DNA from: Bacillota bacterium
GTDB lineage: Bacteria > Bacillota_I > Bacilli_A > Acholeplasmatales > Acholeplasmataceae
Length of the DNA: 33,826 bases
Reading direction: 5' to 3'
Assembly: GCA_018817915.1 (NCBI GenBank)
Contig: JAHISX010000062.1
Location: forward strand, 1-33,826
The translations under genes were made by a program, and so were the position numbers. Within the stretch, counting starts at the first letter, position 1. Every line of letters begins with the position of its first letter. This document shows, piece by piece, positions 1,771 through 11,011 of the stretch. A model generated the notes under the pieces. It did not search any database, was not told the origin of the DNA, and saw only the letters and a list, made by a program, of their open reading frames with translations.

Positions 1771-2916
1771 TTAGTCTAATATTGGACTCGTAAACTTAAA
1801 TGAGGTGGTTCCGCTAGATTCTCCATCGCCTTCAATATCAATTGATGTTGGAATAGCATAACTATAAAACAATTGAGAATCAAGAAATGAATTTATTATG
1901 TTGTCATTTTTTAAACTCAAAGTTCCAGTTACATAAGTGCCACCAGTAATGGTCGTTGTTCTTTGTGTTGAAGATAAATTTCTACTTAAAAAATAGCCAT
2001 AACCATTTGTATATTTACCTATAAAGACATCCTTTTCTGTTAATATAAAACTTGGTCTAGATATTGAACCTAATTTCGTATAATTAGCAAGTGTCACATC
2101 ATCTTTAGCATATACAGTTCCATAGATATATTGTGAGTAACCTGATTTTCCATTAACTTTAAATTTTCCATTAACAATCACATTTCCTGTTAATGTGCTT
2201 CCACGATTCATTGTTAAATCACCATCAATGACCAATAATCTATTATCAGGTATTGTCAAATTTTTGCCATTTGGGATGGTTACGTCGTCATCAATATACC
2301 AATGCCACCAAGCAGTTGGATCCCATGCATTTTCTAAGTCGGATGATCTTCTTTCATCAAAACCGCTGTTATCATCTGCTAAATCTTTAATATATTCGAC
2401 GATATCATCTATACTTGTAAAATTTGTCTCAGGTGTCAACCAAGGAAAATTTTCTTCGAAATATTGTGGAATATAAGTCGACATCAGATTTGAAGGTGTA
2501 GCTAAGGGACTTAAGATAAAATCCTGTTCTTGCCCGGTATTTTGAAAGATAGAATCAAAGGTGTCAACAGCTGAAGCGGATCCAGTTAGATAACTTGTAA
2601 TGCTTTGTGTTGCAGTAATCATTGAAGTGATAGTATAAACTCCAGCGCTATATACATCAATGGATACACCCATATAGGTTTCTAGATCTAACAGGTATTG
2701 TGGTTCAAGGTTTTGATCTCTCACTATAATTTTTATGGTCGCATCCACCGATTGAACAGCATTAGCATAAGCTTCTGTTTGTTCAAAACTCTGATCTACT
2801 AGGCGTGCTTGAAAGACTGCAAAAGTTAGAAGAGATGCAGTTATAGCGATGACAAAAGTAACGATACCAAGTACTGTTGGTAAACCAATGCCACGATTGT
2901 TTAGTTTGAATCTCAT
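1771..2916 (-). CDS. PilX-like minor pilin with large extracellular domain
   Basis: 381 residues. The N terminus has a short basic leader ending NNRG, then a roughly 22-residue hydrophobic segment starting IGLPTVLGIV, so it looks like a class III (prepilin) signal. Position +5 after the Gly is Thr instead of the conserved Glu, as in PilX/GspK-type tip pilins. The C-terminal two thirds (about residues 205-340) is rich in short hydrophobic and Gly/Asn repeats such as LVIDGDLTM, GNVIVNGKFKVNGK and GTVYAKDDVTL. These suggest a right-handed beta-helix similar to polymer-forming or adhesin domains. The start follows GAAGGTGAG at good spacing. It is the last gene of a three-gene minor pilin operon, 17 bases after its neighbour. 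Inferred role: tip pilin or adhesin. The exact family is unproven. Confidence 0.7.
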   Translation of the reverse strand: MRFKLNNRGIGLPTVLGIVTFVIAITASLLTFAVFQARLVDQSFEQTEAYANAVQSVDATIKIIVRDQNLEPQYLLDLETYMGVSIDVYSAGVYTITSMITATQSITSYLTGSASAVDTFDSIFQNTGQEQDFILSPLATPSNLMSTYIPQYFEENFPWLTPETNFTSIDDIVEYIKDLADDNSGFDERRSSDLENAWDPTAWWHWYIDDDVTIPNGKNLTIPDNRLLVIDGDLTMNRGSTLTGNVIVNGKFKVNGKSGYSQYIYGTVYAKDDVTLANYTKLGSISRPSFILTEKDVFIGKYTNGYGYFLSRNLSSTQRTTTITGGTYVTGTLSLKNDNIINSFLDSQLFYSYAIPTSIDIEGDGESSGTTSFKFTSPILD

Positions 2917-2933: not shown

Positions 2934-3458
2934 TTATGGTGTAGGAACTGCAAGTATAGCAAAGCTATAAGATGTTGTAAATGTGTAGACTTTTCCACTA
3001 TCAGCAACAAGCTCAATTGTCAAGACAAAATATGCTTGCGATAGGTTTTCAATAAGTTCAATTTGTGTCCCAGAGCCTAAAGTAAAATATTCAATTTGTA
3101 AAGGAACGTCATCAATTAGAATTTGCCCATCAGATATTTCAATTTTATGTGTTAATGCTGGGTTATAAACAGTTAATACGATATCTTCAAGATTTGGGTC
3201 AAATTCATAAATAAAGGCTTTTTGAAAGATGACGCAATTACTTCCACATGTCATATATTCTGTAGGACCAAAGTCTTGAATATGATCTTTAATTTCACGA
3301 TCTAAATAGAGTCCTTGAGTATTCGCCATTGAATTAATTTCAATTCGAGTACTTGCGTAGTTGATGAGTGAAATGACTGTTGCTAGTAAAGATATAAGTA
3401 ATCCAAAAATAACAAGTGATGCAAGTACTTCAATTAAAGTCATCCCTTTTTTATTCAT
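2934..3458 (-). CDS. Minor type IV prepilin (PulJ/PilW-like position)
   Basis: 174 residues with a textbook prepilin N terminus: MNKKG, then MTLIEVLASLVIFGLLIS. Cleavage would be after Gly5, and the key Glu is at +5, followed by one hydrophobic helix. The globular part has a close Cys pair (TCGSNC, about residue 104), which could form a disulfide outside the cell. The start overlaps the end of the previous gene by 8 bases, suggesting translational coupling. Substrate of the prepilin peptidase encoded at 8798-9550; expected to be inserted in the membrane and to join the pilus or its priming tip complex. It could also be named a pseudopilin of a secretion or competence pilus. Confidence 0.85.
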   Translation of the reverse strand: MNKKGMTLIEVLASLVIFGLLISLLATVISLINYASTRIEINSMANTQGLYLDREIKDHIQDFGPTEYMTCGSNCVIFQKAFIYEFDPNLEDIVLTVYNPALTHKIEISDGQILIDDVPLQIEYFTLGSGTQIELIENLSQAYFVLTIELVADSGKVYTFTTSYSFAILAVPTP

Positions 3459-3900
3459 AGATGATACCTTCTAGCGTTAGAAATCTATTAGGGTAATACT
3501 CAATAACTATTTCGAAATGAATCACTTGATATTGAATAGATTCAACAGTAGGAGCTAAAAAAACGATGGATAGAGAATCGTCATAAACTTTGTTGTCTAT
3601 TTCATAAGTAAATATATCACAAGAAAAAGGAGTTGATAAGACTGTGCAGTTGTCATTGGTTAATATAACCTGTTCACCATTCATCCAAATCAAGACATCA
3701 GCATATGTCGAATTATTGATGAGATCGTCTCTAATCATTGAACCAACTTGGGTTGCTAAAATGCGTTGGTTTGTAGCTTCAGTTTGATTACGTACATTGA
3801 TGATGATTGTTACAACAGTAGTTAATACTAAAGAGATGATAAAAATAGAAGCAACTGCTTCTAGGACAGTGAAACCTTTATGTCTGATGTTGTTTTGCAT
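3451..3900 (-). CDS. Minor type IV prepilin (PilV/PulI-like position)
   Basis: 149 residues. The leader MQNNIRHKG is followed by FTVLEAVASIFIISLVL: cleavage after Gly9, Glu at +5, then a long hydrophobic helix. The remainder is a small soluble domain with two Cys (about residues 83 and 94) that may pair. The start is preceded by GGTGAGGAC. It is the first gene of the leftward operon and overlaps the next prepilin gene by 8 bases. The leftward promoter region (about 3926-3959) shares an intergenic space with the divergent pilB-pilC operon, so the two halves of the pilus machinery are probably co-regulated. The exact minor pilin type cannot be assigned by eye. Confidence 0.82.
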   Translation of the reverse strand: MQNNIRHKGFTVLEAVASIFIISLVLTTVVTIIINVRNQTEATNQRILATQVGSMIRDDLINNSTYADVLIWMNGEQVILTNDNCTVLSTPFSCDIFTYEIDNKVYDDSLSIVFLAPTVESIQYQVIHFEIVIEYYPNRFLTLEGIIYE

Positions 3901-3925: not shown

Positions 3926-3959
3926 ATTATATTATAAATAATTGATTTCGGTTCACTTA
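3926..3959 (-). promoter_or_regulatory. Putative promoter of the minor pilin operon
   Basis: On the minus strand there are two overlapping TATAAT boxes (3936-3931 and 3931-3926). With a 17-base spacer the -35 position reads TAAGTG, far from consensus. A consensus -10 with a poor -35 fits a promoter that needs an activator. The palindrome at 3976-3990 lies just upstream. Confidence 0.45.
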
Positions 3960-3975
3960 ATGAAGAACTCTTATC

Positions 3976-3990
3976 TTAAGATTTTCTTAA
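3976..3990. promoter_or_regulatory. Inverted repeat TTAAGA-N3-TCTTAA in the divergent pilus promoter region
   Basis: A perfect 6+3+6 inverted repeat in the 156-base space between the two divergent pilus operons. Its centre (3983) is 45 bases before the rightward -10 (4028) and 47 bases from the leftward -10 (3936). The identical half-sites with the same spacing occur before the major pilin promoter at 8145-8159. Candidate activator site; the binding protein is unknown. Confidence 0.5.
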
Positions 3991-4027
3991 TTTCAAAAAA
4001 AACAACGCGATTAAACTATTCATTTGG

Positions 4028-4033
4028 TATAAT
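4028..4033 (+). promoter_or_regulatory. Putative -10 element of the pilB-pilC operon
   Basis: A consensus TATAAT lies 23 bases before the TTG start codon. The -35 position at 4005-4010 (ACGCGA with a 17-base spacer) has no match to consensus, again suggesting activator dependence. Confidence 0.5.
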
Positions 4034-4056
4034 ATTCTTAAATAGAGGTGATGGAA

Positions 4057-5253
4057 TTGAACAAGTTCAAGCGATTATTTAAACGGAATGCATATTTCAT
4101 GATCACACTCATTGTTTTAGTACTATCCATTGCATTTGCGGGTTTTATACTCGCAGTTTTTAGTATTGGCAATACAGTAGATCAAACGAGTGTTGGTTTT
4201 ATTTATTTAGGGAATTACGATGAAGACCAATATGATACAAGATTAAGTCGTGAAATTGATCTATGGAAGGTTACCGCTGACTATAGAATTGAATATCAAG
4301 ACTATACATATTTAGTCGATTTAAGTATGATTGATTTTGATTCGGATGCTACAATTTCCAACTTAGTAAAAGATCGTGAAAACAAAGCTTATTTCAATCT
4401 TTCAATAGACAATATTGTAACTTTAGAAGATGAAATTATGACTCAATTCACAACATCTGTCACATCTACATTTAATATAGAGTTATTTACTTCTGATTTA
4501 ATGAATGATGTTAGCGCATTAAAAAATCGAAAGATTTATGATTTGACTGATTATCTTGAACCCAATGTGTCTGCCACAACCCTAGATCAAGCAGAAGTAA
4601 CTTCGATCTCTAGTCCTGATGTCCTTTCAATTATTGCTCAAGTGAGCACAATCTATATTGGAGCAAATCAGAGATTTTCTCTATTAAACCAATTGGGAGA
4701 TTTACCTCTAACGAATGAACAATTAAGTATCATTGCCTCTGGCATACAAGCTGTGACAATGAATACTAATTTTAATGGGTTTATTTTTGAACAAAATTAT
4801 ACACTACCAACTTGGGCTTCAAGTGGTATGAATGTTAGAATCTTGCGTGTCAATCAGTTTGATTTTACTTTTTTCAACGATTTTAGTTTTAACTATCAAA
4901 TTTTAATTGAACAGGTAGATGCTACTACACTTTCGTTTTCTTTATTAGGTTATCCACTCATTACTGCATATGAAACAACACCTGTTTTCCAGGTTAGTAT
5001 ACCCTTTCAAACCATTTATATCGTGAATGAGGATATTAATGAATTGACAGAAAATGTTATTATCACTGAAACCGACACTGAATATATCTATCATGTTCTC
5101 ATTCAAACCGGTGTTGCTGGACATGTCACATTTTATATGAGAACCGAAACTAGATTAGGTGAACTTGGTGATTCAATCAAGCTATTTGATGAAGAAAGTC
5201 TTCCTACACCTGAAATATATTATGAGAATATAGTTGATAAGGAGGTCATTTAA
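4057..5253 (+). CDS. Unknown membrane-anchored protein, first gene of the pilB-pilC operon
   Basis: About 398 residues; family not recognised. It has a basic N terminus (NKFKRLFKRNAYF), one hydrophobic segment at about residues 13-35, and then a long, mostly beta-type, Cys-free region predicted to lie outside the cell. I place the start at TTG 4057: the strong SD AGAGGTGAT (4044-4052) sits just before it, whereas the upstream in-frame GTG (4048) and ATG (4051) overlap that SD. The stop codon abuts the ATG of pilB, so the two are co-transcribed. Position and topology suggest a T4P accessory protein, perhaps an anchoring or assembly factor filling a PilP-like or extracellular role. This is inference from context only. 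Confidence 0.7.
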   Translation: MNKFKRLFKRNAYFMITLIVLVLSIAFAGFILAVFSIGNTVDQTSVGFIYLGNYDEDQYDTRLSREIDLWKVTADYRIEYQDYTYLVDLSMIDFDSDATISNLVKDRENKAYFNLSIDNIVTLEDEIMTQFTTSVTSTFNIELFTSDLMNDVSALKNRKIYDLTDYLEPNVSATTLDQAEVTSISSPDVLSIIAQVSTIYIGANQRFSLLNQLGDLPLTNEQLSIIASGIQAVTMNTNFNGFIFEQNYTLPTWASSGMNVRILRVNQFDFTFFNDFSFNYQILIEQVDATTLSFSLLGYPLITAYETTPVFQVSIPFQTIYIVNEDINELTENVIITETDTEYIYHVLIQTGVAGHVTFYMRTETRLGELGDSIKLFDEESLPTPEIYYENIVDKEVI

Positions 5254-6909
5254 ATGGCACTTAAACGCATTGGCGATGTCTTACTTCAAGAAAAAGTAAT
5301 TACACAAGAACAATTAAATCATGCACTTAAACATAAAGAAAAAGATGAGCGTTTAGGAGAAACACTCGTTCGACTAGAAATTGCTAGTGAAATGCAAATT
5401 TTAAAGGCACTTGAAAATTCTACCGGTGTTCAACGTGTATCTTTATCCAATTTTACGATTGAAGAGCATGTGCTAACCTTAGTAGATGAAAACTTTTGTC
5501 GCCGTAACGTCATCATTCCACTTAGAATTGAAGGCAATAGAATATTATTTGCTACATATGATCCTCTAGATTTTGCAGTCATTGAAGAATTACGTATGAT
5601 GACTGGGTACCGACCTAAAGCATATTCTGCACCTAAAAATGATATTTTAACTCAAATTGAAAAGTATTATGGATTTACTAGAACCTTAGAAGCATTAGGT
5701 GTTAAACAAAATATTATGAGTGAAGAAATCATCGAAGAAGATGATGATTTAGATGATACACCTATGGTGAAGCTCGTCAATCAAATTCTAACCTCAGCCG
5801 TTTTTCAAAGAGCAAGCGATATTCATATCGATCCAATGGACGATAAAGTTTTGGTCAGATATCGTGTTGACGGTGTTTTAGATGTCGTTAGAGAATTTCC
5901 AACAAAAATCCATCATCAAATGATTAGTCGTATCAAAGTCATGTCGGGTATGGACATTACTGAAACCAGAATTCCTCAAGATGGACGTATCCAAACATCA
6001 ATTCAACAAAAAAATATTGATTTACGTATTTCCACTTTACCTACGGTTCGCGGTGAAAAGGTCGTGATGCGTATTTTAGACTTATCAGGTTCGATGAATA
6101 AAATTACTGCAATCGGTCTTGATCAAAAAGAAGAAGCACAAGTTAGACATTTGATTGCTCAACCCAATGGCATTGTTTTAGTCAGCGGACCCACTGGTTC
6201 AGGTAAAACAACGACTCTTTATGGTTGCTTAAATGAATTGAATAAACCGAATGTGAATATTGTTACAGTTGAAGATCCAGTTGAAATCAAAATGGAAGGT
6301 GTCAATCAAGTTCAAGTACAACCTGAAGTGAACCTAACATTTGCACGTGCGCTACGCTCAATCTTAAGACAAGATCCTAACATCATCATGATAGGTGAAA
6401 TTAGAGATGTTGAAACTGCAGAGATATCCATCAGAGCTTCTCTTACGGGTCATTTGGTTTTGTCAACAATTCATACCAATGATGCAATCAAAACGATTAC
6501 ACGCTTATTAGATATGGATATAGAGCCATTTTTAATTGCTTCATCATTAAGTGGTGTTATTTCTCAAAGACTTGTTAGAAGATTATGTAGTGAATGTAGT
6601 TATGATGAAAAACCTAGTGAAATGGAAGCGGAAGTATTTAAGAAGCACCATTTTGAAGTTGATCATGTCAAGCGCGCAAAAGGATGTCCATCATGTAATT
6701 ATAAAGGATATGCTGGACGTGTAGGTATATTCGAAGTTTTACCAATTTCTAAAGAAATGCAGAAATTAATTGCTGAAAATGTTGGTTTAAATGTATTAGA
6801 AAATCAAGCTAAAAAAGAAGGCATGAGAACTATTTTGCAATCAGGATTGCAAAAAGTTAAAGACGGTATGACAACTTTAGAAGAGGTACTTAAAGTCGCT
6901 AACGAATAG
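5254..6909 (+). CDS. pilB: Type IV pilus extension ATPase PilB/GspE family
   Basis: 551 residues, full length for PilB. This is the cytoplasmic hexameric ATPase that drives pilus assembly. Domains in order: an N-terminal T2SSE_N/MshEN-like domain (about 1-150, with GDVLLQEKVITQEQL), a linker, an N2 domain and the RecA-like motor. Motifs: Walker A GPTGSGKTTT (about 311-320), Asp box and Walker B region IIMIGEIRD (about 375), His box region LSTIHTND. A four-Cys zinc motif (CSEC near 446 and CPSC near 487), typical of PilB/GspE and absent in PilT, argues for the extension motor. SD AAGGAGG precedes the ATG. It sits between the unknown anchor gene and pilC in one operon. Confidence 0.96.
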   Translation: MALKRIGDVLLQEKVITQEQLNHALKHKEKDERLGETLVRLEIASEMQILKALENSTGVQRVSLSNFTIEEHVLTLVDENFCRRNVIIPLRIEGNRILFATYDPLDFAVIEELRMMTGYRPKAYSAPKNDILTQIEKYYGFTRTLEALGVKQNIMSEEIIEEDDDLDDTPMVKLVNQILTSAVFQRASDIHIDPMDDKVLVRYRVDGVLDVVREFPTKIHHQMISRIKVMSGMDITETRIPQDGRIQTSIQQKNIDLRISTLPTVRGEKVVMRILDLSGSMNKITAIGLDQKEEAQVRHLIAQPNGIVLVSGPTGSGKTTTLYGCLNELNKPNVNIVTVEDPVEIKMEGVNQVQVQPEVNLTFARALRSILRQDPNIIMIGEIRDVETAEISIRASLTGHLVLSTIHTNDAIKTITRLLDMDIEPFLIASSLSGVISQRLVRRLCSECSYDEKPSEMEAEVFKKHHFEVDHVKRAKGCPSCNYKGYAGRVGIFEVLPISKEMQKLIAENVGLNVLENQAKKEGMRTILQSGLQKVKDGMTTLEEVLKVANE

Positions 6910-6920
6910 GAGGATTGAAC

Positions 6921-8141
6921 ATGGAGCTCCGTAATTTTAAATACACTGCTGTCAATGCTGATGGCAAACTGATTCGGGGCCGAATTGAAGCCTTGAATCG
7001 TAATGTATGTATTAAATATCTTCAAACTAAAAATTATCAAGTTAAAACAATTCAAGAATATAAAAGTATCATTTCTAAATTAAACCAAATTTCATTTGGT
7101 AGTACGCTTAAATCGAAGCAACTCATTTTCTTTTTAAAGCAATTGGGTTCTTTATTAAATGCAGGTGTCAATATTGTTCAAGCACTTGAATTATTAAGTT
7201 TACAACAAGATAATAGATTGCATAGAAAGCTCTATTTTGAATTATATCAAGCAGTTTATAATGGGTTCTCTTTTTCACATGCTTTAGCCAAAAGACCTAA
7301 AGAATTTCCTAATTTACTCGTTCAAATGATTGAAATTGGTGAAATTTCAGGTGGGTTACCACAAACGGTTTTAAAGATGGCTGACTATTATGATAAGCAA
7401 ATGAAAATTACAAACGATATCAAAAGTGCCATTCGTATGCCTTTGATCTATTTAGTCGCGACATTCATTATTGCAGCAGGCATGTTAATCTTTGTTTTCC
7501 CTAACATTACTGATCTTTTCTTATCCTTTGATGGCGCTCAATTGCCAGGTATTACACAATTCTTTTTAGATGCTGGTAATTTTACAGCTCAATATGCACT
7601 CTTTATTTTTGGTGGATTAGCATTAGTTATTCTTGCGATTTGGGCACTCAATAAATATGTGCCTTCTATGCATAGAGCATTTACAATATTTATGCTGAAA
7701 TTTCCTGTTATTGGTTCGCTAACACAAATGAACAATCAAATTATGATTGCAAACTCACTATCACAAATGATGTCCAATGGTATTAACTCACTTAAAGCCT
7801 TACATACCATAAGAAATTTTGTTAAGAATACAATCTATAAGGAGTTACTAACTAAAACAATACTTTATATCGAAGATGGTAAGCCATTTTCTAAATCATT
7901 TGTCGAGAGTCCTTTCATCGATCCAATTATGTCTAAAATGATAGCAACCGGAGAAAGAACAGGAGATATTCCAAAATTGATGGATAATTTAGCAATATAT
8001 TATAATGGCATATCAGAAATAAGAGTTGCTCAAATTAAAAATTCGCTTCAGCCAATCTTATTAATCGTTGTATACGCACTCGTAGGCGTGATGATTTTGG
8101 CAATTATGCTACCGATGCTTTCTCTTGGTAGTCAAATCTAA
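6921..8141 (+). CDS. pilC: Type IV pilus inner-membrane platform protein PilC/GspF
   Basis: 406 residues with two T2SSF domains (about 63-185 and 270-390). Transmembrane segments are visible at about 170-190 (LIYLVATFIIAAGMLIFVF), 220-240 and 378-400. The conserved repeat-type motifs EIGEISGGLP and ATGERTGDIPKL, one per half, are diagnostic. I chose ATG 6921, 7 bases after AGGAGG (6908-6913), over the in-frame TTG at 6915, which is too close to the SD. It follows pilB by 11 bases. PilC couples PilB motion to pilin insertion. No retraction ATPase gene follows. Confidence 0.95.
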   Translation: MELRNFKYTAVNADGKLIRGRIEALNRNVCIKYLQTKNYQVKTIQEYKSIISKLNQISFGSTLKSKQLIFFLKQLGSLLNAGVNIVQALELLSLQQDNRLHRKLYFELYQAVYNGFSFSHALAKRPKEFPNLLVQMIEIGEISGGLPQTVLKMADYYDKQMKITNDIKSAIRMPLIYLVATFIIAAGMLIFVFPNITDLFLSFDGAQLPGITQFFLDAGNFTAQYALFIFGGLALVILAIWALNKYVPSMHRAFTIFMLKFPVIGSLTQMNNQIMIANSLSQMMSNGINSLKALHTIRNFVKNTIYKELLTKTILYIEDGKPFSKSFVESPFIDPIMSKMIATGERTGDIPKLMDNLAIYYNGISEIRVAQIKNSLQPILLIVVYALVGVMILAIMLPMLSLGSQI

Positions 8142-8144
8142 ATA

Positions 8145-8159
8145 TTAAGAAATTCTTAA
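8145..8159. promoter_or_regulatory. Inverted repeat TTAAGA-N3-TCTTAA upstream of the major pilin
   Basis: Perfect inverted repeat, extended by one base on each side (8144-8160). Its centre (8152) is 46 bases before the -10 start at 8198 and 16 bases lie between it and the -35. It has the same half-sites, spacing and promoter distance as the copy at 3976-3990. It could alternatively be a weak hairpin at the end of the pilC transcript, but there is no T-tract. Confidence 0.5.
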
Positions 8160-8175
8160 TTCAACATGCGTATTG

Positions 8176-8203
8176 TTGACAAATATAAATGCTGTGATAA
8201 GAT
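8176..8203 (+). promoter_or_regulatory. Promoter of the major pilin gene
   Basis: Consensus TTGACA (8176-8181), 16-base spacer, TAAGAT (8198-8203), about 40 bases before the start codon. The strong -35 fits high expression of a structural pilin. Confidence 0.7.
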
Positions 8204-8242: not shown

Positions 8243-8644
8243 ATGACTCGAATTCTAAAAAGTAGAAAAGGTGTAACATCAGTTGAATTATTAGCAGTAA
8301 TCGTAATTCTTGGTATCATTGCAGCAATCGCTGTTCCTACTATTGGTGGTTTGATTGAAAGACAAAGAGTGAGTGCTGCTGAAGCAACATTCTCAAATAT
8401 CGAATCACAAGCTTTAATTTTTGCAGTTGATGATGAAGATGGTGTGTTTACACTTTCCGCTTTAATCGCTGATGGTTTCGATCTTAAGGACAATGTTCTT
8501 ACTTATGACGAAGCACAAGAAGAAGCTGTTGTAACTACAGCCATTACGATTACAGTTGTTGGCTCAACAGTTACTTTTGGACATGCAACTGAAACTGAGC
8601 TTTACATTAATGGTTATTTAGTCTCAACATTAGTTAACCCTTAA
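8243..8644 (+). CDS. Major type IV pilin (prepilin)
   Basis: 133 residues. The leader MTRILKSRKG is followed by VTSVELLAVIVILGIIAAIA: cleavage after Gly10, Glu at +5, and the long N-terminal hydrophobic helix of type IVa-like pilins. The mature protein, about 123 residues, has no Cys and ends in a beta-rich domain with ITITVVGSTVTFG. SD AGGAGG lies before the ATG. It has its own strong promoter and a good terminator, so it is a single-gene unit inside the T4P locus, as expected of the most abundant subunit. Acted on by the prepilin peptidase encoded next. It could be a ComGC-like competence pilin; pilin versus pseudopilin cannot be separated by sequence alone. Confidence 0.93.
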   Translation: MTRILKSRKGVTSVELLAVIVILGIIAAIAVPTIGGLIERQRVSAAEATFSNIESQALIFAVDDEDGVFTLSALIADGFDLKDNVLTYDEAQEEAVVTTAITITVVGSTVTFGHATETELYINGYLVSTLVNP

Positions 8645-8750: not shown

Positions 8751-8797
8751 AAATGTAGGAGATGTGCTTAATTTATTAATTAAGGACTATATTGTTT

Positions 8798-9550
8798 ATG
8801 ACACTGGTATATTCGATATTGATTTTCATATTAGGCGCATTATTCACTTCTTTTTTTCAATTGGTTGCTGAAAGAATACCTAATCATGAGTCTATCAATG
8901 GGAGAAGCTATTGTCCTAAATGTCATCAAACGTTGCGTTGGGTAGACATTCTCCCTGTATTTGGTTATTTGATTAATAAGGGAAAATGTCATTTTTGTAA
9001 TATGACAATTCCGATTTCACATTTATTATTAGAAATATTTGGTGGAACGCTCTTTGTTTTTGCTTATTTAACACTTGGATTCCAACTAGAACTTATTGTT
9101 GCTATGATTATGATTTCTGTTTTGCTTGCCGAATCAATTAGTGATGCTTTATATATGATTGTCATTGATCGTATTTGGATGATTGGGATAGTGCCAATTA
9201 TTGCAATTAGAATCATCCAAGAAGATTTCTTTAAATACGCTTTATCAAGCATCATTATGTTTACAATCCTTTATCTGTTTGCTTACATCGGTAAGAAAAT
9301 TTATCGCAAAGAAGCATTTGGTGGTGGAGACGTAAAAATATATCTCTTTATTGGTTTTTGTTTAACATATCAACTAGGTATTTTATCATTATTTCTTGCT
9401 TCATTATTTGGTTTAATTTATGGTATCATCAAGCAGAAAAGCGGTCACACAGAAATTGCTTTAATACCGTTTATCTTCGCAGGTGTTTTCATTTCATATT
9501 TCTATGGAGATATGTTGATCAGTTGGTATTTAAATTTACTAGGAGTGTGA
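8798..9550 (+). CDS. pilD: Prepilin peptidase/N-methyltransferase PilD
   Basis: About 250 residues, polytopic membrane aspartic protease that removes prepilin leaders and usually methylates the new N terminus. The N-terminal domain has the zinc-binding double CxxC (CPKC and CHFC near residues 37-70). The catalytic Asp pair is visible as an Asp in the SISDALYMIVID segment and in the GGGDVK motif (about residue 175). Several hydrophobic helices surround them. I prefer ATG 8798, 11 bases after AAGGA; TTG 8792 in frame is only 5 bases away. Its substrates are the four prepilins in this locus. It overlaps no gene but is followed after 6 bases by pilMN. Confidence 0.94.
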   Translation: MTLVYSILIFILGALFTSFFQLVAERIPNHESINGRSYCPKCHQTLRWVDILPVFGYLINKGKCHFCNMTIPISHLLLEIFGGTLFVFAYLTLGFQLELIVAMIMISVLLAESISDALYMIVIDRIWMIGIVPIIAIRIIQEDFFKYALSSIIMFTILYLFAYIGKKIYRKEAFGGGDVKIYLFIGFCLTYQLGILSLFLASLFGLIYGIIKQKSGHTEIALIPFIFAGVFISYFYGDMLISWYLNLLGV

Positions 9551-9556
9551 TGTATC

Positions 9557-11011
9557 ATGTTGTTTCGAAAAGGTGAAGTCAATATCTTTATAACCGATGA
9601 AGCAGTTGGTATTTATCAAAGTGCATTAAAAAAGGACAAAGCACCGATAAGTACAGTTATCGATCTTGAAAAACAGATTGTTGAAAATGGTTATATCATT
9701 GATCCTGAAGCACTTTATTTGAAAATAAAGATGCTTTTTAAGAAAAACAATATCAAGCCAAGAAGTGTTAATATGACCATTCACGATCAAAATCTTTTGA
9801 TACGTGAGTTTAATATTGATAAAGAAGATCTTCAGAAAAAAACAATAGCTACCTATATCCGCGAACAAGAAGGCAGGTCCATTCATTTTCCTTTTGAAGA
9901 AGCAAATATTACATATTATGTCAAAGCTGAAGATGCGCAGACGATATCAGCAGTTGTTATCATCTCTGATGAAAACTTATTACAAGATTACCATGATGTC
10001 TTCGATCGTTTAGGTCTTAAATATGTCTCATTTAATATTGCACCCCGTGTTTTATATCGCTTATATCAAAATGAATTTGATAAGGATCTAGAACAAGCTA
10101 TGATTGTTTCATTATATGGCAATATGATAACTATCAACATTCTTGAACATGGCATTCCTGCATTTGGCATGATTGAAGAATGCGAAGGTCATGCCAATCA
10201 GTATTATGAAGTGGTAGAAAACTATATAGAGCGTGTTGCTAATTATTATCATTTCAATGTGAAAAAAGGATCAACAAATATTTCTGATATCATCGTCTTC
10301 AACTTTAATAAACAAATTTCAGAAAGTGACATTAAAAACAAAATTAGACCTGAAATTGAAAATTTAAAACTTGATGTCTACCAATCTCAAAATAGAATAT
10401 CTGAGATTGAAAATATTGATGACTTTTGTACAATGTCATATGCTTCAAGTCTTAAGAAAAAAGGCGATCATACGCATTTGTTTAATTTTGAATTAGAGCG
10501 CTCAAAGAGAATTACCAATTACGCAAATTACATACTTGTTTTGTCATTTACTATTTTCTCAGCGGTTGCTTTAATATATATTCCATATATTACTTTTAAT
10601 GAAGATATTAATGTTCAACAAAATATCAATCATGTTCTCCAAAATCAACTTGACACCTTGAGAGAAGAAACACCAATCGTCCCTTCAACATCTGTTATGG
10701 AGAGAGGCTATAGTAATGCATATGATTATCTGATCAGTCAAGTAGATGAACCTTCGATATATTTTTCAGATTTATTAGATCAAATTAGTGGTAGTATGCA
10801 AGTTGAACTCTATTCATTGGATGCTTCTACACAACAGATCATGATTGTTGTGTCAGCGACTTCAGAAGCTGAGTTGTATGAGTATCTCATTGTTATTTAT
10901 GAAGCATATGGTATAACAGATGGCACCGATGATTTAAGATGGATGGCATCTCAGCCCAGCAGAAGATTTATTTCAAACCTAATGATGGAGGTAACCATCA
11001 ATTATGCGTAA
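9557..11011 (+). CDS. Fused PilM-PilN pilus alignment protein
   Basis: 484 residues. Residues about 1-310 look like the actin-fold PilM domain: the alternating pattern VNMTIHDQNLLIREFNI, then IREQEGRSIHFPFEEANITY and the lobe with MIVSLYGNMITINILEHGIP. A single transmembrane segment follows at about 321-345, then a 140-residue periplasmic-type part with a coiled stretch (QQNINHVLQNQLDTLREE) like PilN. PilM and PilN are separate proteins in well-studied T4P systems, where PilM binds the short cytoplasmic tail of PilN, so a fusion is functionally sensible. The usual DIG-type phosphate-binding motifs of PilM are not evident. The next gene is PilO-like and overlaps by 8 bases. Assignment rests on pattern and context. 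Confidence 0.75.
   Translation: MLFRKGEVNIFITDEAVGIYQSALKKDKAPISTVIDLEKQIVENGYIIDPEALYLKIKMLFKKNNIKPRSVNMTIHDQNLLIREFNIDKEDLQKKTIATYIREQEGRSIHFPFEEANITYYVKAEDAQTISAVVIISDENLLQDYHDVFDRLGLKYVSFNIAPRVLYRLYQNEFDKDLEQAMIVSLYGNMITINILEHGIPAFGMIEECEGHANQYYEVVENYIERVANYYHFNVKKGSTNISDIIVFNFNKQISESDIKNKIRPEIENLKLDVYQSQNRISEIENIDDFCTMSYASSLKKKGDHTHLFNFELERSKRITNYANYILVLSFTIFSAVALIYIPYITFNEDINVQQNINHVLQNQLDTLREETPIVPSTSVMERGYSNAYDYLISQVDEPSIYFSDLLDQISGSMQVELYSLDASTQQIMIVVSATSEAELYEYLIVIYEAYGITDGTDDLRWMASQPSRRFISNLMMEVTINYA

Follow-up and report, generated by a model that had tools for sequence, protein, structure and literature searches.

A type IV pilus locus with two copies of a short repeat

The window (the whole stretch of DNA analyzed, 33,826 nucleotides, contig C12 of a 2.13-Mb draft genome) contains a type IV pilus (T4P) locus with divergent minor-pilin and pilB operons. 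Two copies of a short repeat, here called boxes, lie within it. The genes, boxes and promoter elements are listed below.

1771..2916, minus strand: leftward operon, third gene; product with no family match
2934..3458, minus strand: minor pilin with a prepilin N-terminus
3451..3900, minus strand: ComGE/GF-like minor pilin, the gene that opens the leftward operon
3926..3936, minus strand: -10 region of the minor-pilin operon, with two hexamers that overlap and lie 39 and 44 bp from box 1
3975..3990, no strand assigned: box 1, CTTAAGATTTTCTTAA, between the divergent minor-pilin and pilB operons
4025..4033, plus strand: extended -10 of the pilB operon, TGG-TATAAT (hexamer 4028-4033), 37 bp from box 1
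4048..5253, plus strand: gene that opens the rightward operon; 401-aa product with no family match
5254..6909, plus strand: pilB, with an N-terminal MshEN c-di-GMP-binding motif
6915..8141, plus strand: pilC
8144..8159, plus strand: box 2, ATTAAGAAATTCTTAA, preceding the major pilin gene
8176..8181, plus strand: -35 of the pilin promoter, TTGACA (consensus)
8198..8203, plus strand: -10 of the pilin promoter, TAAGAT (TGA-TAAGAT), 38 bp from box 2
8243..8644, plus strand: major pilin
8792..9550, plus strand: prepilin peptidase (pilD)
9557..11011, plus strand: pilM-like gene

A sequence-only reading of the window had placed the inverted repeat TTAAGA-N3-TCTTAA at 3976-3990 and 8145-8159. Both coordinates are correct, and these two sites (TTAAGATTTTCTTAA and TTAAGAAATTCTTAA, respectively) are the only exact dyads in the window. 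The distances given from the center of the repeat to the -10 elements (45 bases on the pilB side, 47 on the minor-pilin side and 46 for the pilin) also agree with our measurements. On the minor-pilin side, the value of 47 is for the hexamer at 3936-3931; a second hexamer of equal quality overlaps it at 3931-3926, and the distance to that one is 52. As had been noted, both divergent promoters have good -10 elements and no good -35, consistent with activation. The pilin promoter has a consensus -35 that the earlier reading did not mention. Box 1 consists of CTTAA at 3975-3979 and again at 3986-3990, 11 bp apart, and is a tandem box that can be read in either direction.

Relatives with pilB orthologues at 75-93% identity are Acholeplasmataceae/Tenericutes MAGs and Peloplasma aerotolerans M4Ah, a species assigned in the literature to GTDB genus UBA2284. 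A search for an Rfam c-di-GMP riboswitch upstream of the pilus genes gave no Rfam match anywhere in the window.

Exact copies of the repeat are enriched in the genus

We found that the exact dyad is more frequent in the genus than expected from base composition. The control in these counts was the reversed pattern, which has the same composition. The exact dyad occurs 5 times in the genome that contains the window (2.1 Mb; 1 reversed control) and 37 times across 20 genomes of the genus (7 controls). Outside the genus (21 genomes) it was not enriched, with 8 copies and 14 controls. Dyads with one mismatch showed no excess in the genome scan (33 vs 35 control), nor did dyads with two mismatches in the window. 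The loose definition of the inverted repeat is the wrong one, because one-mismatch dyads show no excess. The exact copies carry the signal, and the mismatched dyad fails to describe it.

When the tandem box defined below was combined with a TG-extended TATAAT, the 20 genus genomes contained 20 matches in the forward and 19 in the reverse orientation; the reversed controls gave 0 and 0. Sister genera had no excess of the box, and their pilin promoters lacked it. The genome that contains the window is AT-rich, and UP elements occupy the same region of a promoter, so an AT-rich promoter element or chance might be considered. However, given the empty controls and the restriction of the enrichment to genomes with the candidate regulator described below, we regard this explanation as scarcely credible.

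The conserved element is a tandem repeat

We found that the element conserved throughout the genus is a directional tandem repeat, [AC]TTA[AC]-N6-[AC]TTAA, with 11-bp spacing between half-sites. The perfect inverted repeat is one subset of this tandem element. Upstream of the pilin gene, the tandem box was kept in all 14 genus genomes read, and the dyad was lost in eight of them. Close relatives have a site of the ATTAAGAAATTCTTAA type; others have CTTACATTTTCATTAA, ATTACAATTTTATTAA, CATTACATTTTCATTAA or CTTACGTTTTTATTAA in the same place. The divergent intergenic region likewise keeps a tandem box in most relatives (e.g., CTTACAAATACCTTAA and ATTACAAATTCATTAAC), often with loss of the dyad. 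One genome (G018) has only a degenerate site there, and the divergent region of L100 (79% PilB identity) has no box. The box was also absent from the pilin promoters of further T4P loci (L061, L062, L073, L074, L077 and L083).

The box is conserved beside pilus genes in relatives, and the inverted-repeat reading does not survive the comparison of orthologous sites. A true inverted-repeat operator TTAAGA-N3-TCTTAA, as first proposed, bound by a symmetric dimer would account for the enrichment of exact dyads in the genus. We consider it very unlikely, since what orthologous sites retain is the tandem pattern and not the dyad, dyads with one mismatch show no enrichment, and a symmetric site would not yield the orientation-dependent phase described in the next section.

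The divergent pilus regions of three loci that have no box (L060, L061 and L083) hold another dyad, similar to TTGGC-N9-GCCAA, perhaps another operator.

Box orientation and distance to the -10 element

We found that the distance from box to -10 follows the DNA helix and that the two orientations are half a turn apart. At the exact sites, with -10 elements picked by eye among the listed candidates, the gaps clustered near 16, 23, 28, 33.5, 38, 44, 48 and 54.5 bp. Flanking bases at these sites hinted that orientation sets the series of gaps, and we therefore tested the box together with an extended -10 across the genus. Forward boxes lie approximately 28, 38 or 49 bp from the -10, and reversed boxes approximately 23, 33.5 or 44 bp. 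Sites that match only in the forward orientation were mostly at 27-28 and 37-39 bp; reverse-only sites were at 22-23, 33-35 and 44 bp.

The difference in phase between orientations was significant (12:1 vs 2:12; p about 1e-5, and 3-5e-4 once orthologues were collapsed). One of the 13 forward sites and two of the 14 reverse sites broke the rule. Among these 27 sites, one (G011:C18) came from the exploratory set and two were pilus sites seen earlier. The distance between box and -10 had been described as fixed; instead, the gap shifts in helical steps, with the phase set by the orientation of the box. Seven species have one site for both divergent pilus operons, with a gap of 48-50 bp on the pilB side and 33 bp on the side of the minor pilins.

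The -35 regions of box promoters resembled random sequence, and none of 36 had 5 or more matches to a -35. The difference from other extended -10 promoters reached only p 0.07. Some boxes, those with a gap of 16 bp, would overlap the -35 region, as might be expected for the operator of a repressor. In contrast, most boxes lie upstream of the -35 region and keep helical phase with the -10, and their promoters have no -35; we consider a repressor operator very unlikely.

Genes downstream of the box

The surroundings of every exact copy in the genus (n=37) were read. More than half of the copies (20/37) precede genes with a GGDEF domain, and 7/37 precede pilus genes. One of the remaining copies is located before the neighbor of the candidate regulator, 6 are before other genes or no clear gene, and 3 are intragenic. 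The count of 20 takes in copies before orthologues of GGDEF genes that are truncated by contig ends, and before the ODP portion where an ODP-GGDEF gene is split.

It had been reported that no exact copy lies upstream of a non-pilus gene. This is true of the window and not of the genome, which has three such copies before GGDEF or GGDEF-related genes: a PAS-GGDEF-HD gene (contig C19), another PAS-GGDEF-HD gene (C75), and a gene for an ODP-type sensor related to ODP-GGDEF-REC proteins (C44). The suggestion that the motif is the operator of a T4P regulator holds in so far as a regulator's operator is conserved at pilus genes; it does not hold as a pilus-only operator, as most copies precede c-di-GMP genes.

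The ODP-GGDEF-REC gene on contig C44 (L153) is split by an in-frame TAA, and intact orthologues are present in relatives (L141 and L147). At three loci (L142, L144 and L181) a gene for a DinG-like helicase is divergent from a GGDEF gene with a common box, with a gap of 16 bp on the helicase side in L142 and L144.

The tandem box was found before 11/47 GGDEF genes in total: 7/15 in the genome that contains the window, 2/16 in G006 and 2/16 in G017. Dinucleotide shuffles of the 47 upstream regions contained a mean of 0.7 boxes and a maximum of 3. Setting GGDEF genes directly against other genes (11/47 vs 12/134, p 0.02) makes a weak comparison, because most of the 12 control boxes belong to pilus, regulator-adjacent or GGDEF-divergent targets; the shuffles are preferred.

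A candidate regulator

Several matches to the box adjoin the gene for an OmpR-family protein of 231 aa (contig C2:27709-28401 of the genome that contains the window). Its receiver domain (PF00072, 79.2 bits) and DNA-binding domain (Trans_reg_C, PF00486, 88.9 bits) both score above the cut-off. Receiver residues E9, D10, D53, T81 and K102 (the acidic pair, the phospho-acceptor aspartate, T and K) are invariant. The protein is conserved in the genus at 76-96% identity, with an invariant recognition region.

A strict box lies just 3' of the candidate gene, before a gene for a 160-aa protein, at 12/15 genus loci examined. The exceptions are G013, which lacks the 160-aa gene, and G007 and G008, which have degenerate sites only. 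The 160-aa neighbor (L266:2998-3510 and orthologues) has no family match. Its structural model is PAS-like, and a structure search with the model gave only weak PAS matches (E about 5e-3). In some species, boxes are also located upstream of the candidate or its leader.

Upstream of the candidate (e.g., at L270, L267, L269, L276 and L296 (G049)) there is a promoter followed by ~130 nt, at the end of which lies a terminator-like hairpin whose loop is CCCCCC. Nine of the 11 pairs of the hairpin have two-sided compensatory changes among nine genomes, and the transcript is possibly a small RNA; it had no match in Rfam. Its promoter is preceded by a box or near-box in five genomes.

We found that the candidate and the box have matching distributions. 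The candidate was detected (E below 1e-70) in 16/20 genomes of the genus and in 1/41 others, G049. The four genus genomes in which it was not found (G010, G015, G018 and G019) are fragmented drafts, all with box matches. G049 contained 9 matches to the box plus -10 (0 control). Its minor-pilin and pilB operons are divergent, with an exact TTAAGATTTTCTTAA between them; a GGDEF-EAL gene and a GGDEF gene are also preceded by boxes, with gaps of 28 bp and 34 bp, respectively. In 18 relatives without the candidate there was no excess of the box plus -10 (54 vs 77 control). Four candidate-lacking relatives that have GGDEF genes had boxes before 0/32 of them, compared with 2/18 in G049 (p 0.12).

Based on these distributions, the box and the candidate are most likely linked, with the candidate as the best predicted binder. 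Another OmpR-family regulator of the genome might instead bind this tandem operator and control the same regulon. Genus genomes encode approximately 7 PF00486 proteins each, of which only the candidate was profiled across relatives, and the gene with the box 3' of the candidate could be a target like any other, in which case the box there would not signify self-linkage. However, the distribution of the candidate matches that of the box, including the prediction for G049, and boxes lie directly 3' of the candidate in 12 of the 15 genomes examined; several genomes also have one upstream of the candidate or its leader. We therefore think a different regulator unlikely.

Proposed mechanism

The box has direct half-sites ~11 bp apart and orientation-dependent helical phasing, both features of tandem operators of the OmpR/PhoB type. 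We think it probable that a response regulator of the OmpR/PhoB type, with the 231-aa protein as the best candidate, uses the motif as its operator and joins the pilus operons and many GGDEF/HD/EAL genes in one regulon. From the sequence-supported elements (box, phasing, targets and co-distribution) we infer binding, activation, phosphorylation and c-di-GMP feedback.

A phosphorylated head-to-tail dimer would bind two [AC]TTA[AC] half-sites 11 bp apart. The bound dimer would touch RNA polymerase from one face of the helix and activate promoters that have a TG-extended -10 and usually no -35. Boxes would lie at whole helical turns in one orientation and be shifted by half a turn in the other because the dimer must face RNA polymerase correctly. 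One regulator would thus govern the pilus machine as well as how much c-di-GMP is supplied. The MshEN domain of the PilB motor is probably a sensor of c-di-GMP; as PilB has the MshE-type motif, the machine and the signal read by its motor would both be under the control of the regulon. There is perhaps an even chance that the candidate is a genus-wide master regulator in free-living wall-less bacteria, coupling T4P genes with much of the c-di-GMP enzyme set, and that c-di-GMP made by its targets feeds back on the MshEN domain of PilB, itself a target.

In the literature searched, no paper dealt with type IV pili and c-di-GMP together in Tenericutes, and neither pili nor c-di-GMP are mentioned where the species Peloplasma aerotolerans is described. 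Although mechanisms of this kind are known, the regulon and the candidate regulator appear to be undescribed in that literature. With a predicted box, regulon and regulator, the question can be tested directly in a cultured species.

Comparison with known systems

The closest named family of the candidate is WalR/YycF, at 209.1 bits. This is below the NCBIfam equivalog cut-off of 340, and we rejected the assignment. WalR prefers TGTWAH-N5-TGTWAH, and the box described here differs from that sequence.

AmrZ is a ribbon-helix-helix protein of a Gram-negative bacterium, and its DNA site is unrelated to the box. In Pseudomonas aeruginosa this one transcription factor controls both type IV pili and c-di-GMP synthesis (PMC3946381).

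The SaeR box of Staphylococcus aureus, GTTAA-N6-GTTAA, is recognized by an OmpR-family regulator (PMC5083920). Like the SaeR box, the element described here has tandem TTAA half-sites with an 11-bp period. Unlike the SaeR box, its half-sites have A or C in place of the initial G, and the first half-site tolerates C as its fifth base. The regulator is different, and the targets here are pilus and c-di-GMP genes. Only the TTAA core and the spacing are common to both, and we rejected the possibility that the element is a SaeR box.

PhoP is an OmpR-family activator of Salmonella, for which experiments show that boxes in one orientation lie at whole turns, and those in the other at half turns, from the -10 (PMC3335776). 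Here, too, a tandem box is used in both orientations with an orientation-dependent half-turn phase. The PhoP half-site (GTTTA) and the PhoP targets are different. The absolute distances fit PhoP best if the reverse orientation here corresponds to the direct orientation of PhoP boxes. The promoters described here are a large natural set that follows the rule of orientation and half turns demonstrated by those experiments on PhoP.
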